Made by a program: the position numbers and the translations under genes | From: Polytrichum commune | Lineage: Eukaryota; Streptophyta; Polytrichopsida; Polytrichales; Polytrichaceae | Direction of reading: 5' to 3' | Assembly (NCBI GenBank): GCA_950295325.1 | Contig: OX485804.1 | Coordinates: 69,728,033 to 69,792,032, forward strand | Length of the DNA: 64,000 nt | Part shown: positions 33,118 to 60,169 of the stretch, piece after piece | Numbering within the stretch: position 1 is the first letter of the stretch | Layout: each line of letters begins with the position of its first letter | The notes under the pieces: generated by a model | Told to the model about the DNA's origin: nothing | The model's database searches: none | What the model saw: only the letters and a program-made list of their open reading frames with translations

Positions 33118-34719
33118 CAGTGTTCAAGATTGAAGTCTTCAATGCCCTTCAAACGCGATTTGGCCCTTCAAAATATACCTCTCTCAAAACAACCCTTCAA
33201 AATGCAACCCCAAACTCAAAATGAAAACTTCACTTGACGTCTTCAAATTTTTTACACCCGTCAACACTGTAGCGCTACAGTGACGAGGAGGTCGTTACAG
33301 CAACGAGGAGGTCGCTACAGTGACAACCTCAACACCTAGCAAATGATTCATTCAACATCGATCTGACTTGGAATTCAACTTTTTAGGTCTTGCAAAAGAT
33401 TGGAATCCAACCCTTTCTTTGATAAGCATTGAGTCAGTGTTGTAGTGTGATGTGATTCAATCAATGTGAAATCAGTGCTGATTTGAAATCCCGTGCAACT
33501 TTACAGATCCATTCGGTGAGATGGTTATCCTGTGGCTTGGTCATGGAGAGATTGGTATTTTGTATGCCTGCAATTTTAGAAATTTGGGAGGTTGAAGAAC
33601 CCACATGGTACAAGGATCTAACTTCTCTTCAGTTCCAATTTTTCATTCACATGCTAGCTGATATATTATCAGAGTTGAATAAGGTCAATCGCAAGTTTCA
33701 GTTTGATCTTGTAGATATCACTAGCATAGCTTCTACGATTGATGTAACAATCAGCTTGTTTCGTAGACACTATCTGGGTGTAAGTTTTGGCCTGACAACC
33801 AAACACCTAGGAAAGTTTCTCCGCGAGGTGGTACCCAATGGGCAAATATTGTATGTTGATAGTTTTGGGTGTGAAAAAATGCATATCTTGCATTATGATT
33901 CCATGCCCGAGTGTGACGTAGGAGGCTCATTGGAGGCATGCATCATGTTGGGGAGGCAGTATGTGCAGAAAATCATCGATTCACTCAATGATCGATTTCC
34001 TGACTTGTCCATTTTCAATGCGGCCCGGCTTTTTAGCCCGAAGCACTATCCCGTAGATGAATTGGACAGAGGGACATTAACGGAACAATGGTTGAACCGG
34101 TTGGTGACACATTTCCGTTGGAGCGATGACCTTGTTAATCAATGCAATGCGGAATTGCTAGAATTCGTGGAGATGTTATGTTCCGTTTGTGAACGCCGAA
34201 GTATGCAAGAAGCTTGGGTTTTTTGTGGCAATGACCGGGAGTTCATGATTAATTGGCCAACTATGATGTCGCTATGGCAAGCCATACTTGTGATCCCAAC
34301 TAGCACTGTTGTTTGTGAGCGTGGTTTTTCAAAGCAAAATTGGGTTAAGAGTGAAAGGAGAACTAGACTCAACCTTGACACACTAGATGCTTTAATGAGG
34401 GTTAGTCTAAATGGGTTAGGAGTTGAATTCATGGATTGGGATAGTATTTTTGAATCTTGGAAAATTGGCACAAGAACCAACAAGCGTAGGGCATTATCAC
34501 TAGAAGAGGTGGAGTTAGATGGTTGATTCTTAATTCTTCACATTGTATTGGAAGCATGCACCATATAAATCATGCATAAGTTTAATATGAGTTTTTTATA
34601 TTTTATTTCTATATTACTGAATTGACGTCTTGAATTTGAACTAGCCCTTCAACCGAAGGGCTCAAATTTTAGAGCCCTTCAAAATGAAACTCATATGAGG
34701 GCTTCAATCTTGAACACTG
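33118..34719 (+). mobile_element. hAT-family DNA transposon with perfect ends, 5' deleted
   Basis: A 1602-bp element with perfect 18-bp inverted termini CAGTGTTCAAGATTGAAG and a perfect 8-bp target duplication GCCGCCAT (33110-33117 and 34720-34727). It encodes only the C-terminal part of a transposase. The intact ends and identical target duplication show a recent insertion. The 365 bp before the coding frame are non-coding and include several CTACAGTGACGAGGAGGTCG-like short repeats (33270-33320). Confidence 0.95.
33483..34526 (+). pseudogene. hAT transposase, C-terminal half (truncated)
   Basis: An uninterrupted 348-codon frame inside the hAT element. It opens at a TTG, and the first ATG is 20 codons in (MERLVFCMP), so the N-terminus with the BED-type zinc finger and the first catalytic residues is missing. 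HSVRWLS near the start is the conserved 'RWLS' segment seen in ZNF862/KIAA1586-like hAT proteins. Near the end, LWQAILVIPTSTVVCERGFSKQN is the hATC dimerisation region, followed by RTRLNLDTLDALMRVSLNG, the usual tail. A complete transposase of this type has about 600-800 residues. There is no internal stop, so decay is recent or the deletion derivative moved in this form. It could still make a fragment capable of dimerising, but there is no evidence of expression. Confidence 0.9.
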
Positions 34720-35479: not shown

Positions 35480-38400
35480 ATGGCAACGTCGTCTCCCACG
35501 GCTATGGATTCCCGTAAGATGATCCTAAACTAATGCCATCATGACTAGTTTTTTTGTGTGTAGGAGAAGTCGAAGTTGATCATGCTTCAAATGTGAGCTA
35601 ATTTTTGTAAATGTAATGGATCCGGATATGGTGTGTCGGATGTCAAAACTTCTTCAACCCAAAGCAAGACACCATGTTGTCTAGATCTTATTGCAGTATT
35701 TCTCCATATACTGAACAGGCAGGCAGTCCAGAACAGTTCGAAGATGTAAAGTTAATGTGAGTTAATTTTTGTAAATGTAATGGATCCGGATATGGTGTGT
35801 CGGATGTCAAAACTTCTTCAACCCAAAGCAAGACACCATGTTGTCTAGATCTTATTGCAGTATTTCTCCATATACTGAATAGACAGGCAGTCCAGAACAG
35901 TTCGAAGATGTAAAGTTCGGTAGACGTCTGATTGATATTGCAAACTTCTAACTTGTTGAAATTCTGGTGATCACAACGAAGTTTTCGGTCGACATTAGTA
36001 GGTCATTAAAAACATGTGTCGTTTTTTGGTTCTTAACCTTTGGTTGTTTATAATAAATCAATTGTGACTGCAAATTTGTAAACTTTTTGCAGGATGTGGT
36101 TCTGACGTTGGAGAAGCCCAGCATCCGATTGAGACCGCTGAGAAACTTGAAGAGTCTAAACCCCTGGCGAGTTTTCAGAAATTGGTTTCCAAAGTTGAGG
36201 GTGTCCAGGAATTGGTCGAGGGCTCTGTAATGTGGAACAAAGAGCAGTGCAGACGCATTGCCGATCGTTACCGTGGAATTGTCAAAATGTTGAAGAGCAT
36301 GACTACGGCTGGAAATTCTGGATCCGTCCTTGGCAGCACTCAAGAATTTGTTGCAGATGTCGTACTCCATGAGATACAGAAGGTTCAGACAGTTATTTTA
36401 AGCTGCGAGGGCGAATACCAAGGACTTACCAATGTAGTTTCCCTGATAAACAACCCGGAAGCATTTAAAGGCCTTCATGAGGACTTAGATGCTGCCATGG
36501 AAAAGCTTGGTTTGCAAGGAATGGTGGACTATACAGGTCCTGAGTCCTGTACGTTGAATACAGATGCTGAAAAGGACAAGAATGAAAACTTTCGAAAGCT
36601 TTCCCAAATGCAGAATGGGGAGAAATTAGCACGGGTGGTCACGGAGAAAGCAGCAACAGATGTGGATCTCCAGAAATTTGTGAAAGGCGACAATCCAGAA
36701 AAGCTGCCAAGTTATCTCAGAATATCTGAAACTGAGATGATTATTGGTGACCTCGTATCTCCATATAAGAGAAATAGCGAACGAGATCCGAAGGATGAGG
36801 TTGGTTGGGCACAGGTAAGGAAAGGAAAATGGCTCAATCTCGACTTCGCCGTCAAGGTGTTCAAATGTGATGCAGATGATAGAGCTGATTGGAACCAAAA
36901 GCAGTTGTTGATGGAGGCTGGCTCATTGGTAGAACTGCGACACCCTCATGTTGTCCGGCTTGTTGGTTTTGGCCAATTTGAGAAAAAATCGGTTTTTGTG
37001 ATGGAGTTAATGGACACGGATCTTCGAAGGTTCATGGACAACAAAACCAAACGCCTGACAGATAGTGAGAAACTTGACATCATAATCCAAATTGCAAAGG
37101 GCATGTATTACATTCACACAAAGGGATACGCACACGGAGATCTCAAGTGTTCCAATATCATGGTCAAGGAAAACGGTCAAATTCCCGAAGTGAAGATCGG
37201 AGACCTCCGAGGCTCGCAGAAACTCGGAGAATGGAACCCGGAGGCGTTCAAGCAAGCGAGTAAGACAAGACGACCTCGATGGACTGCACCTGAGGCACTC
37301 GATTATTCTTGTCAGAGTATTAACTTGACTTGGGAGTCATTGAAGCAGATTGACACCTACAGTTTTGCAATGACTTGTTTTGAGATTGTGACTGGTGGAT
37401 ATCCATATGATGGGATCACAGATGAACGCAACCTGGTGAACATAATCAAGGAAGGGAGGAGACCAGAATTGCCTAACAAGTTGGATGAGCATCTCAAGGG
37501 ACTCATCGCATCATGTTGGGATCAAGATCCAGAGAAGCGGCCAAATTTTAAGAGCATTTGTCAGAGTCTTGTAGCTTCAAAGGAACGCTCTTCCCAGGCG
37601 GCTCATGTGCTACGTGGATTGGTGCAATTCCTGCTGTCTCATGTCCCGAACTTTATTTATAAGCAAGGCCAAGGAGACGATGAACAATCTGTATGTAATA
37701 TCAACGGTGCAATGCATGCGACATCGGCGGATTTGAGATTTCCTGAGAATTTGCGTATTCAACCAGAGCAGCTGATGAGAGGGGATCGTATCGGCTCAGG
37801 CAGGTTTGCGAGAGTTCACAAGACCACCTGGTTAGGGTGCACATTTGCTGAGAAGGTATTGAAGAGAAGATGGATCACTACAGCAGTGCAGGAGGAAATA
37901 ACTACCTTAATTAGGGTAAGCCGTCATCCTTGCATAGCACAATTGATAGGGTTATCGGTATCCGATGGGCAATGTTCGATCTTATTGGAGTATATGAATG
38001 GTAATCTGCGCGAGCTGATGAATACTCGACTGAGAAAAAGGCCTTTTGAGCTTCGTGAAGAAGTGCTCATCATCTCCCAAATTGCATTGGGTATGGCATA
38101 TTTGCATTCCCAGGGATTGGTGCATAGGGACTTGAAACCTCCAAATCTGCTTGCCCAGGAGCATTGTAATGGAACCATAGAGGTGAAAATTGTGGACTTC
38201 GGTGTATCGCACCTAGGTGTAGAGTCTCCAGAATCTAATGATACACAGGCAATACACACACCGGTTTATTACGATGGCATGGGTACTAGCTTCTATCGAG
38301 CACCCGAAACGTTGCCACCTCATAACGATCCCCCCGAAGATTTGTCCAAGCTGGGACTACCTGATAAGCCGTCCGAGATGAACCTGCAGGCACTGAAGGC

Positions 38401-38665
38401 AACAGATGTCTATAGTTTTGCAATGACATGCTACGAGGTCTTGACTGGAAACTGTCCATGCTCAGATCTGAAAGCAACAGCCTATGCTCAAGTAAGGTCC
38501 GAAAACTACAGACCAAAGTGGCCTGCACATTCTCCTCCGGAAAATGAGAGGCAGCAGCTGAAGTGGCTTGTGGAACGATGCTGGGATCTTCTGCCACAGA
38601 ATAGACCAACCTTCGCTGACATTTGCAAGGAGCTTGCCACGATCTCAAAGTCATTGAGCCTCTAG
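35480..38665 (+). CDS. Tandem double protein kinase, 868 aa, TKL-like, first domain atypical
   Basis: Exon 1 (35480-35513, MATSSPTAMDS) joins exon 2 (36093-38665) in phase 1. Residues ~40-190 form a helical, charged region (VQELVEGSVMWNKEQCRRIA) that precedes the kinases and may be a regulatory four-helix domain. Kinase 1 spans ~225-500: Lys266 in FAVKVF and an alpha-C Glu (LLMEAGSL) are present, the catalytic loop is HGDLKCSN (Asp361) and the magnesium motif reads D382-L-R-G instead of DFG. No glycine loop is evident; TAPEAL is present. Kinase 2 spans ~570-865 and is canonical: GSGRFARV loop, Lys599, HRDLKPPN (Asp691), D713-F-G, and a RAPE motif. Both resemble plant Raf/TKL or RLCK kinases. 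There is no signal peptide or membrane span, so it is likely cytosolic. Kinase 1 looks weak or dead, so a JAK-like arrangement with a regulatory pseudokinase is plausible inference. Confidence 0.85.
35591..35918. repeat. 164-bp tandem duplication inside the double-kinase intron
   Basis: Two adjacent copies, 35591-35754 and 35755-35918, differ at about three bases (GAGCTA/GAGTTA; AACAGGCAGG/AATAGACAGG). The near identity shows a very recent duplication. Each copy contains TTATTGCAG, so an extra acceptor-like site is duplicated upstream of the real exon 2 acceptor at 36092. Confidence 0.95.
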
Positions 38666-44488: not shown

Positions 44489-44838
44489 AAGGTAGATGGG
44501 TCTTAAATGGTTACTTTTCTGACTAGCCCACGTCTCCTGGGATAAAAAACACATGATTAGCACGAGATGGCTCGCAATCCAAATCAAGGCTGTAGCCACT
44601 TTCCTCATGGTTTTCAAAGCTCATATGAATACCTTATTCATAATCAAAATGAAGATTCTCATGCTCATTAAGTGGTTATACAAGTCCCCCAGTTATCTTG
44701 ACTGATAAGCCTAAAATAGTTATCACATTTTGAGCACATATTTTAAACACGTCGTTTTGGTATTTGTTCTTGGAGCCACACCTATACACAAACCACTCAA
44801 CTATAGGCATCCAATAAAGATAAGTAATTGAATAAGGC
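44489..44838 (+). repeat. Dispersed repeat R1, copy 2
   Basis: Parallel to copy 1 (42847-43207) along its whole length: AAGGTAGATGGGTCTTAAAT, GACTAGCCCA, GCCACTTTCCTCA, TTCTTGGAGCCACACCTAT and GGCATCCAAT. This copy shows the uninterrupted site into which the Mutator-like foldback inserted in the R1 copy at 57700. Confidence 0.85.
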
Positions 44839-46349
44839 AATGGAGATGCCTTATGGACACCGTCAAGTACACTTATGCCCCTTCCTCACTTGACTTTAGT
44901 GAGGTGGGTTTTAGCCTAAGACTTGATCCTTAATACCAGCCTTCCCCACTTGAGCCGGTAATAGGTTCCGAGCTAAGTTGGCAAGCAAATGTATCACCCC
45001 TAATACCCCCGATCCTAGAGTTACAGTGCCGAGGCTTGCTGCCTTTGCTAACAATGTGGAGGGATTCTAAGGCCGCTAAGGCTCATAGAGCGCGGCATCA
45101 GATTGGGCAGGACTGGTTTTAGCTATCTCGCCTCCCTGTGGGACTTTACCAGTAAAATTGAGGGGAGGGTCCCACTCCCGGACTTGGCGAAGGCAAGAAA
45201 CGGCTTGCTCATTTCAAGTCATAAGGAAATTCATAGGCCAACAAAGTTCTTAGCCCAAATCACCGAAACCGGCGGCGGTGAGAACCCTTCTTAAGGGATT
45301 TCGGTAACACAATTCACAAATTTTTCACCGTACTTGGGTTCTAAGTTTTGTGAGCTCCACATTTCGGAGTCCACTACTCCTAGTATGATGGTTGGTTTAG
45401 CTCAAACCCTACTACACATTTCCACAAATTCATTTCGATGTGCACATCCTAAGGAGGTCACTGCTCCAGTAAGAGCGAGCTCTGCATTTCGGAAGAGGTC
45501 AGGGTTGCATTCCCATGTACACAACCTTTGCGGGTTGCAAATCAACATAATTTGAGTCAAAGGTTTAGGGTACACATGTGATTAGTTAGGATGCAGGTTT
45601 CGCTGGGAGGGAGCTGTGCATTTTAGAGTCCAAGTTACTACGAATTTCGGCATACATAGCCTACAACAAGTCGTTGCTCTAGCTGATACGAGCTGCGCAT
45701 TTCGGAGTCCAGGTGAGCTAAACACAAACGTAGTGTACAGTGAGGATCGCTCTTCGAAAATTCTTTTGGTTGGAGCAGTAGAGTTTGCTTCCTGTAGCAA
45801 TCATGCATATTGAAATGACTTGATCGAGGAAACCTCATTCCAAAAATTGCCTACTACAGTTGAGCATACCGTTACGAGCCTTCAACAAACGCGGGACACA
45901 TGACTCTCCCCTCAGTTTTACAAGCACAGTTAAGAAGTTTGCTTCGACAAGCCCAAAAACTGGGACTCTCATCTTTGATTTACCAACAAAGTGAAAAAAG
46001 TTGTTAACAAAAGGCATTAAGACGGCCCCGGGTATTAGGCCGAAGCTGCCAATATTGCTAAACTTGGTGGTGGACCATAATACCCTACCACTGGATATAA
46101 CAGTGGCTTTTAGCTTTAAGACCGAGTCTTTAGTAAGTCATGTGGGGAGGGGCCATTACCTTTATTTTAAAAATATTAAATATTTGTTCCCAATTGGCTG
46201 TGCTTGGCCCCATCTTAATTTTCACATCGTGAAATATCAGATACCCGATCAGTGACTGATCAGGCCACTTTTAGAATGCTATGGAGCCGAACTGTTGAAT
46301 CCATAAACTAAATATTCATGAAGGGCTACAAAATTGCAGGTGATAAAAT
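44839..46349. other. Intergenic region with a degenerate short repeat
   Basis: No gene recognised. A word like GAGCTGCGCATTTCGGAGTCC appears about four times at irregular spacing (near 45349, 45475, 45607, 45687) with substitutions. The sequence 44990-45300 is richer in G and C, but its frames carry no motif. It may be part of an eroded retroelement; this is a guess, since no LTR or primer-binding site was seen. Confidence 0.35.
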
Positions 46350-57699: not shown

Positions 57700-57975
57700 A
57701 CTTGTATCGATTCATCTTCCAACACAATTAGTAGGAGATGGTTAGCAAGTTCAAATCGAGGCCATAGCCACTTTCCTCATAATTTTTGGAGCTCATATGA
57801 ATATCTTCAGGGAAGATATTATCAAAGTGAAGATGCTCGTGCTCATGAAATGATCATATAGGCTTCCCCAATCATGTTGACTAATGAACCTAGTATGGTT
57901 ATTATATTTTGTGCATGTAGTCCAATATCTTTTAAACACATTCTTTCGGGTATCCATTCTTGGAGCCACACCTAT

Positions 57976-59861
57976 GGAGGACGTTAAATACCCCCCCACG
58001 AACTTTTCGGGGGGGGGGGGGGGGGATATTCTGTCAAGGGCAGGGTTTCGACATTTTTCCTACACCCGCCCGAAAATTGCTGCCCGCCCGCCCGATTTCA
58101 AAAAAAAAATTGTACTTGGGTTTTTGAAGGCTACTTGTCCACAAATCCCATATTGAGTGCACTTCATTTTCAAGGTCTCAAATCCAATATATATGTTCAC
58201 TTCCATTGAGTAAATAAGCAATTGACTAGATTTCATTTTCAAAGTGAAACCGCCAATAAAGCATGTAATTAACTTGGAAGTAAAAAATATTATAAAATCC
58301 TCATTAGCACAGAGGTTATAATTTTTGTCACTTACAATTCAAAGGGACTTTGTCATTCTAAAATGAAACTAAAATTAATGATTTATTTTTTAACCATAAC
58401 TATATATTCAAATATTCAAAAATAAAAATAAATCATTAATTTTAGTTTCATTTTAGAATGACAAAGTCCTTTTGAATTGTAAGTGACAAAAATTATAACC
58501 TCTGTGCTAATGAGGATTTTATAATATTTTGAACTTCCAAGTTAATTACATGCTTTATTGGCGGTTTCACTTTGAAAATGAAATCTAGTCAATTGCTTAT
58601 TTACTCAATGGAAGTGAACATACATATTGGATTTGAGACCTTGAAAATGAAGTGCACTCAATATGGGATTTGTGGACAAGTAGCCTTCAAAAACCCAAGT
58701 ACAATTTTTTTTTTGAAATCGGGCGGGCAGCAGTTTTCGGGCGGGTGCAGGAAAAAGGGGGATGTTAAATACCCCCCACGATCTTTTCGGAGTGTCAAAG
58801 TCGGGCTGGGGCAGCTGCTCGGCCAAAAAATCTGAATTTTTTGGACCCGACCGAAAACTGCTGCCCGCCCGCCCGATTTCGAAAAAACCATTGCCCTTGC
58901 ATTCTTGAAGGCCACTTACTCACAAATCCCATATTGAGTGCACTTCACCTTCAAGGGCCAAAATCCAATATATATGTTCACTTCCATTGAGTAAATAAGC
59001 AATTGACTAGGGTTTCATTATCAAAGTGAAACCGTCAATAAAACATGTAATTAACTTGGAAGTCAAAAATATTACAAAATCCCCACTAACACTAAGGTTA
59101 TAATTTTTGTGACTCACAATTTGAAATTGTCTTTGTCATTCTAAAATGACACTTAAATTTAGTGTGCTGATTTAGTAGGTGTATTTTATAATATTTTAGG
59201 TAATGCCGTCTACTTTCACAAGTATTCATACGCATTCATTAATATCAAGTGGGATTAAATATAATTAAGTCTAATTAATCTTCATTAATCCCAAATAAAT
59301 CAGAAACTATGCTTACCAAATTAAGTAAACCTAATTGATTATAAAATGTACTTACTGTAATTAATTAATTATTGGAATTAATTCCAGTGAGTTAATTCTA
59401 ATAATTAATTTCTGGAATCAATTCCAGTGAGTTAATTATAATAATTAATATCTGGAATTTTGTAATATTTTTGACTTCCAAGTTAATTACATGTTTTATT
59501 GACAGTTTCATTTTGATAATGAAACCCTAGTCAATTGCTTATTTACTCAATGGAAGTGAACATATATATTGGATTTTGGCCCTTGAAGGTGAAGTGCACT
59601 CAATATGGGATTTGTGAGTAAGTGGCCTTCAAGAATGCAAGGGCAATGGTTTTTTCGAAATCGAGCGGGCGGGCAGCAATTTTCGGTCGGGTCCAAAAAA
59701 TTCAGATTTTCTGGCCGGGCGGCTGCCCCAACCCGACTTTGACACTCTGAAAAGTTCGTGGGGGGGTATTTAACGTCCCCCCAGGCAAAATGTCGAAACC
59801 TGCCCCTGACAGAATATTCCCCCCCCCCGAAAAGTTCGTGGGGGGGGTATTTAACGTCCTC
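57976..59861. mobile_element. Mutator-like foldback element (outer)
   Basis: Both ends read GAGGACGTTAAATACCCCCC inward. The 10-bp target duplication is CCACACCTAT / CCACACGTAT (57966-57975, 59862-59871; one mismatch), a length typical of Mutator-like elements. The left arm (to ~58410) and right arm (58420-58757 plus 59792-59861) are almost fully complementary over about 420 bp with only a ~10-bp AT-rich centre, so the single strand folds into one long hairpin. The right arm is interrupted by a second member of the family. No transposase is encoded. Long homopolymer G/C runs occur at both ends (58010-58026, 59819-59828). Confidence 0.88.
58758..59782. mobile_element. Mutator-like foldback element (inner), nested in the outer one
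   Basis: Ends read GGATGTTAAATACCCCCCAC and, inverted, GGACGTTAAATACCCCCCCA. It is flanked by AGGAAAAAG / AGGCAAAAT (58749-58757, 59783-59791), a 9-bp target duplication with two mismatches. Removing the element plus one flank rebuilds the outer right arm, matching the inverse of the outer left arm near 58045-58065. Arms are about 400 bp, sharing CAATTGCTTATTTACTCAAT and TTTGACACTC, around an AT-rich centre of TTAATTAT-type repeats at 59200-59450. Confidence 0.85.
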
Positions 59862-60169
59862 CCACACGTATCCACATACCATTTAAATTTAGGTGTCCGG
59901 TTTAAGACAAGCAAGCATATTAGCCATGTCAAATACCTTAATATGTAGAGTTCCATTTTTGAAGTGATCGAAAACGCACAACCAATGATGTGTTGAAGTA
60001 GAAGTTACTCATGTTGACATTGATGGACACTTCATGCCCAATGTAAGAACATAAATCAATTGACAACATGTGGAAAATATAATGCTTTAAGTTCTGTATT
60101 TATAATAGTCTTTATAAAAGTTGAATGGTTTCTCACTCTACCTTTCTTCTTCTAGAAGAAACATGAGAG

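Follow-up and report, generated by a model that had tools for sequence, protein, structure and literature searches.

Nested Mutator-like foldback elements in Polytrichum commune, with relatives that suggest exchange of end sequences between transposon families

Two foldback elements at one locus

The stretch of DNA analysed here (the window, 64,000 nucleotides in full) was taken from Polytrichum commune assembly GCA_950295325.1, contig OX485804.1, positions 69,728,033 to 69,792,032 of the forward strand. It holds two foldback elements of one transposon family, here called family 1, lying one inside the other (Table 1). Both elements terminate in GGRGGAYGTTAAATACCCCCC, and each lies between the copies of a 9-bp duplication that differ at one base, a finding that bears out a sequence-only reading that had placed a second family member in the right arm of the outer element. 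The same reading had described the outer element as almost pure inverted repeat with arms of about 420 bp, and when the inner element and one duplication are subtracted the outer element measures 853 bp, of which the arms occupy 415 and 405 bp. Two of its details needed correction: the centre, given as about 10 bp, is about three times as long, and the true element end lies four bases outside the GACGTT at which it had been set. Arms make up almost the entire outer element and about two thirds of the inner one, where they measure 327 and 328 bp (96.3% identity over 327 bp) and are separated by a spacer of ~370 bp. The lower arm similarity of the inner element is compatible with its later arrival, because an element may insert with arms that already differ. 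The motif GGACGTTAAATACCCCC occurs four times in the window at up to 3 mismatches, where 0.09 occurrences were expected.

The inner insertion had been said to be verifiable from the left arm of the outer element, and its empty site is indeed clear, the right arm rejoined over the insertion aligning with the outer left arm. For the outer insertion, the empty site proposed in a copy of the repeat R1 is identical at 230 of 304 aligned bases spanning the junction; this proposal stands on its alignment score (262, against a maximum of 243 in 100 shuffles of the right flank) but is weak to the right of the junction, where 43 of 68 bases agree. The order of insertion is outer element first, followed by insertion of its relative into the outer right arm. 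Taken by itself the locus is a tidy yet ordinary nested foldback.

Table 1. Features of the nested foldback locus and its empty site, in window positions
Feature	Position	Strand	Observation
Outer target-site duplication, left copy CACACCTAT	57967..57975		8/9 bases match 59863-59871
Outer foldback element, ATAC-type ends GGAGGACGTTAAATACCCCCC on both sides	57976..59862		ends coincide with duplication borders
Outer left arm, 415 bp	57976..58390	+	98.0% identity to right arm over 404 aligned bases
Outer centre, 33 bp	58391..58423		gap separating the arms in the inverted-repeat search
Outer right arm, inner-side part	58424..58756	-	inverted-repeat search and arm alignment
Inner target-site duplication, left copy CAGGAAAAA	58748..58756		8/9 bases match 59782-59790
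Inner family member, 1,025 bp, in outer right arm	58757..59781		ends GGGGGATGTTAAATACCCCCC / GTATTTAACGTCCCCC
Inner target-site duplication, right copy CAGGCAAAA	59782..59790		counterpart of 58748-58756
Outer right arm, terminal part	59791..59862	-	aligns to outer left arm across the inner insertion
Outer target-site duplication, right copy CACACGTAT	59863..59871		counterpart of 57967-57975
R1 copy without element (diverged empty site)	44548..44853	+	alignment across the junction

Family 1 and its autonomous members

The exact 17-mer GACGTTAAATACCCCCC was found 181 times in the genome (91 forward, 90 reverse), and its reversed control was found on neither strand (0 and 0). Copies were read from the start of the match lists, which are not a random sample, and comprised 31 pairs of ATAC ends plus the two window elements, giving 33, and 10 pairs of GTAC ends. 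Duplications of 9 bp with at most one mismatch and at the exact place flanked 27 of the 33 ATAC copies (29 when a one-base shift was allowed) and 5 of the 10 GTAC copies; when flanks were paired across different elements, 2 duplications were obtained in 5,402 comparisons, or 10 with the shift. A length of 9 bp at the repeat borders in most copies falls within the 9-10 bp that the sequence-only reading had predicted, and target-site duplications of 9-11 bp are the criterion used for Mutator-like elements (MULEs) in PMC3310237. The copies without such a duplication include L019 and L053, which are enclosed in larger elements, and L049, the real right end of which lies further out with a matching AATCCTATT. 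A duplication appears at L007 only after a three-base shift at the left end, the best ones at L046 and L050 have two mismatches, and none was found in the flanks of L031, L035 and L055. L088 (C2:24289578-24293556) has a family-1 end within another family-1 element, with the outer right end ~500 bp further out and a matching 9-bp duplication.

The autonomous partner was reached through a lone ATAC end on C3, 2.8 kb from a weak MULE match. The reference element (C3:12546476-12559971, 13,496 bp) is flanked on both sides by ATTGTATAC and has terminal inverted repeats (TIRs) of 76 bp and 85.5% identity. One of its exons matches the MULE domain PF10551 (28.6 bits, cut-off 27.6), and a frame on the strand opposite to the transposase matches the Ulp1 peptidase PF02902 (29.9 bits, cut-off 20.7). 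The strings SIDATFGT, VDNAQAEI and NAAIESYHNN, which we take to hold the DDE residues, lie in three separate frames. An apparent tandem repeat array with repetitive open frames was seen near the right end of the element (L005 plus L045, ~15.1-16.0 kb from the L005 start).

A 441-amino-acid (aa) transposase frame of this element has many genomic copies that are at least 90% identical, and Ulp1 matches adjoin many of these. Twelve elements were found with both ends and an inner match to the frame, seven as pairs of exact 17-mers and five more from 34-base ends with at most one mismatch; such 34-base ends number 29, of which seven are without a partner end of the same kind. In 12 of 12 elements the ATAC end is upstream and the GTAC end downstream of the transposase, and all six autonomous copies with both ends read have perfect 9-bp duplications. 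The ratio of nonsynonymous to synonymous differences per site (pN/pS) over the 45 pairs of 10 sequences, pairs that are not independent and from which a diverged eleventh sequence was left out, comes to 0.40 in the transposase frame, with single values against the reference of 0.32-1.41, and to 0.73 in Ulp1, with single values against the reference of 0.53-2.90. Stops are present in some autonomous copies. Three autonomous end pairs are 29-46 kb apart (C2:41396155-41442383, C2:66830340-66859458 and C3:26364684-26395435), and in two of the three the transposase match is split by many kilobases; these spacings probably reflect later nested insertions. The duplications, together with the partner that the sequence-only reading had proposed looking for, found here as elements of ~13 kb whose ends match and which carry a MULE transposase, support its assignment of the family to the Mutator-like DNA transposons.

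End types, composite ends and variants

End pairs were counted from C1 to C4:5,154,790, where both end lists are complete. This region holds 167 exact ends (100 ATAC, 67 GTAC), 59 of them unpaired. The 47 pairs less than 3 kb apart comprise 32 ATAC/ATAC, 15 GTAC/GTAC and no mixed pairs, against a mean of 20.6 mixed pairs after shuffling and no value as low in 100,000 shuffles. In two of the 47, the window pair and L049, the ends joined are those of nested elements. Among long pairs (13-46 kb), seven of seven are ATAC/GTAC, and each encloses a transposase match.

The flanks of L019 and L053 are mutual reverse complements over 96 bases, and both copies belong to larger palindromes with different outer ends and perfect 9-bp duplications. 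These outer ends define families C (GATCTTTGG with GCCGGACGCTAAAGAAGCCC) and B (CTCATAATT with GGCTAGGGTGAACCAACACCC), and the outer arms of both palindromes are multi-copy. Nine of nine further copies of the B type (hereafter B+1) have on each arm, like L087, a family-1 end with at most two mismatches placed 133 bp inward of the B end; this end is of the ATAC type on both arms of L105 and of the GTAC type, within the mismatches listed, in the other eight. The B and family-1 ends so spaced are unlike by eye, and the outer duplication is present. The C ends partly resemble family-1 ends, at a distance of 527-678 bp. At the same mismatch limit, family-1 ends are present on one arm of the C-ended L107 and L108 and on neither arm of L109 and L110. 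A core probe matched both strands in all six C-ended foldbacks and was not found in L111, which covers the initial 10 kb of a long C element. Exactly placed outer duplications that differ at no more than one base flank 9 of 11 B+1 copies (11 of 11 with a one-base shift), 4 of 4 C-ended copies with family-1 ends (C+1), 3 of 4 B copies without family-1 ends (4 of 4 with the shift) and 2 of 2 other C copies. L099 (C6:30.28 Mb) and L100 (C6:29.90 Mb) share the identical target duplication GATATTCCA, so that they are probably one event in a region that was duplicated.

The B end pattern has 355 matches in the genome at up to 3 mismatches. Six further B-ended loci were fetched and comprise one long copy, one B+1 copy (L120) and four copies that have the core without family-1 ends. 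The junctions of these four are all different, and each is the same on both arms of its copy save for point changes and one base of length (L123). L123 and L124 retain a family-1 subterminal remnant, which favours loss of the family-1 ends over their later gain.

Long members also exist in families B and C. The long C member (C7:13869773-13884742) contains transposase pieces 45-76% identical to those of family 1 and in the same order, with an Ulp1 match of 26%. The long B member (C2:38494509-38502098, 7,590 bp) has a perfect duplication, transposase matches of 22-34% and a MULE match of 33.6 bits. Duplications mismatched at one base or none flank the long B copy and three long C copies, two of which were read at the ends only. 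Derivation of the composite arm from a single end of family B was also considered; in the one autonomous B copy read, the left and right ends resemble each other over 127 bp, and the arm fits either side.

Distances between arms were compared in 31 of the 33 elements, those above 800 bp (L007 and L020 out). Private variants were scored in five sets made up of 22 of the 33 ATAC elements in three size classes, 5 of the 10 GTAC elements and nine B+1 copies. L019 and L035 fit a class by size and were left out, the other omitted ATAC elements being outside the size classes; from the B+1 set L100 was left out as the probable duplicate of L099, and L120 was fetched later. The nine B+1 copies have 32 private variants on both arms and 50 on one arm, and mate arms mismatch at 69 cells, against a mean of 155 and a minimum of 80 in 500 shuffles of mates. 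The four family-1 sets have two-arm and one-arm variants in the numbers 7/30, 0/9 (the 1.28-kb class), 7/12 and 8/13, with mate mismatches (shuffled minimum in brackets) of 73 (92), 21 (17), 14 (14) and 14 (14). Homogenisation proceeding outwards from the centre was considered and rejected: arm identity does not rise towards the centre, and the arms of the 1.28-kb class are least alike at 500-600 bp.

Elsewhere in the window, a frame at 33456-34526 carries a hAT C-terminal dimerisation domain (29.0 bits, cut-off 21.4), a second DNA transposon class, and an 865-aa open frame at 36068-38665 has two tandem protein kinase domains. The start of C1 has 100 CCCTAAA copies within 700 bases, as fits a plant.

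Origin of the symmetric ends

The account that we favour, and hold to be likely as a whole, is that the foldbacks are non-autonomous Mutator-like elements using the transposase of the 13-kb members, that the window arose by the outer and then the inner insertion, and that foldback arms are copied onto one another. Both window elements would have been moved by the transposase of the ~13-kb autonomous members of the same genome, its action on the GGRGGACGTTAAATACCCCCC ends of the foldbacks being suggested by shared ends and duplications. Copying from arm to arm would keep the two alike, whether by conversion between the inverted arms or by re-duplicating one of them, and through it a nested insertion, or a loss at a later time, could reach the second arm as well. 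The symmetric end types would be accounted for, as would the family-1 ends inside B or C ends on both arms and the B-ended foldbacks in which the core persists but family-1 ends are absent; the window would then be an asymmetric step that precedes symmetrisation. The picture would be the same for conversion in a hairpin, for gap repair and for a renewed duplication of one arm.

Several observations weigh against this account. Exactly placed duplications with one mismatch or none are missing from six of the 33 ATAC copies and five of the ten GTAC copies. The left end of the reference element shares only ~41 terminal bases (90%) with the outer window element, and the SWIM zinc finger match (PF04434) in the 441-aa frame reaches 12.8 bits, below its cut-off of 19.6. 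The 47 short end pairs fall in few subfamilies and are not independent events, so their symmetry could be inherited from founding duplications. Only L086 and L106 among the C-ended copies have family-1 ends on both arms, and in L106 these lie at unequal depth, 527 and 617 bp inside the C ends. Of the 32 two-arm variants of the B+1 copies, 24 are in the single copy L104. One-arm private variants exceed two-arm ones in all five sets, and the mate mismatches of the 1.28-kb class lie within the shuffled range, so that this set gives no support to arm exchange. The mate is the nearest arm, ties included, for only 34 of 62 arms, and mates form cherries in 15 of 31 elements. A genome search with the nested junction of the window at up to 3 mismatches returned the window itself as sole match, which leaves movement of the window composite as a unit unsupported.

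If each foldback lineage instead arose by one inverted duplication of a single transposon end, with arms diverging independently and no continuing exchange, then ATAC/ATAC and GTAC/GTAC pairs without mixed ends would be accounted for, and the excess of one-arm variants as well. This explanation meets difficulty with L105, which belongs to the single-junction B+1 lineage and has ATAC and other private variants on both arms where the other eight copies have GTAC, and with the four B-ended copies without family-1 ends, which have four different junctions, each on both arms; we regard it as unlikely. Insertion of a family-1 foldback precisely in the middle of a B or C foldback would also produce composites that are symmetric around the core and have outer duplications. 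In that case the inner ends should be flanked by 9 bp duplicated in direct orientation, whereas the inner flanks of two composites are reverse complements and on direct comparison mismatch at 8 of 9 (L019) and 7 of 9 (L053) positions, and we consider it improbable. Foldback reads can generate inverted flanks, which would make the palindromes assembly or read artefacts; their occurrence at many separate loci, with differing outer duplications and with point differences between the arms, makes this very improbable.

The window pair itself may be two ordinary foldback MULEs, a chance hit with no bearing on foldback evolution. We judge this evenly balanced: the uniqueness of the nested junction agrees with it and nothing at the window speaks against it, while in related copies both arms carry the nested ends as a fixed feature, and it is compatible with the favoured reading of those relatives, arm-to-arm copying. 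From the sequences compared, changes in one arm, nested insertions included, may be copied to the other, by which foldbacks could swap ends; the relatives of the nested pair suggest that foldbacks can exchange end sequences between transposon families. We lean slightly towards a repeatable route of end acquisition in which exchange between the arms copies an insertion nested close to one end into the opposite arm, giving nested ends of two families, and the inner pair is later lost, leaving the old core under the control of a new family. Candidates for all stages are present in this one genome, namely family-1 foldbacks, the window nest, the B+1 and C+1 composites and the B-ended foldbacks with the core only.

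MULEs bearing an Ulp1-like protease (ULP) gene, foldback MULEs and tandem-TIR MULEs are already known, and exchange between long TIRs has been proposed for Galileo. Multi-TIR MULEs (Ferguson and Jiang 2012, PMC3310237) likewise have outer duplications of MULE type, tandem TIRs on both sides, several copies, and inner TIRs without a recognisable duplication, and that report calls the origin of TIRs duplicated on both sides unclear; the elements described here differ in having outer and inner ends of different families, in being foldbacks and in including an asymmetric nested stage. The word "foldback" was absent from PMC3310237 on a word search. ULP-bearing MULEs, among them KI (Kaonashi) of Arabidopsis (PMC2528002; Hoen 2006 and van Leeuwen 2007 as cited there), have the Ulp1 gene downstream and reversed, and the PF02902 frame of family 1 is likewise reversed relative to the transposase; KI elements are described there as non-TIR, whereas family 1 has TIRs. 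Tm1 Mutator/Foldback elements of root-knot nematodes (PMC3169594) share composite foldback-like TIRs, 9-bp duplications, a Mutator-type transposase and nested insertions, but are from an animal and of the Phantom subclass, and symmetric ends of different families are not described in the part of that report at hand. Galileo of Drosophila (PMC3573991) has long TIRs and inverted duplication of inner sequence, with TIR exchange and conversion proposed, but is of the P superfamily with 7-bp duplications, and its chimeric copies with two unlike TIRs are without the matching duplications that the composites have here. In the titles and abstract openings that the literature searches listed, symmetric nesting of MULE ends of different families together with an asymmetric precursor was not found, which does not prove its absence in print.

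The genome of P. commune appears to hold successive stages of TIR duplication. The end types of the autonomous parent distinguish its upstream from its downstream end, so that the route can be tested by counting. If it is true, a passenger hairpin could change the transposase that drives it, which would help it to outlive any single autonomous family.
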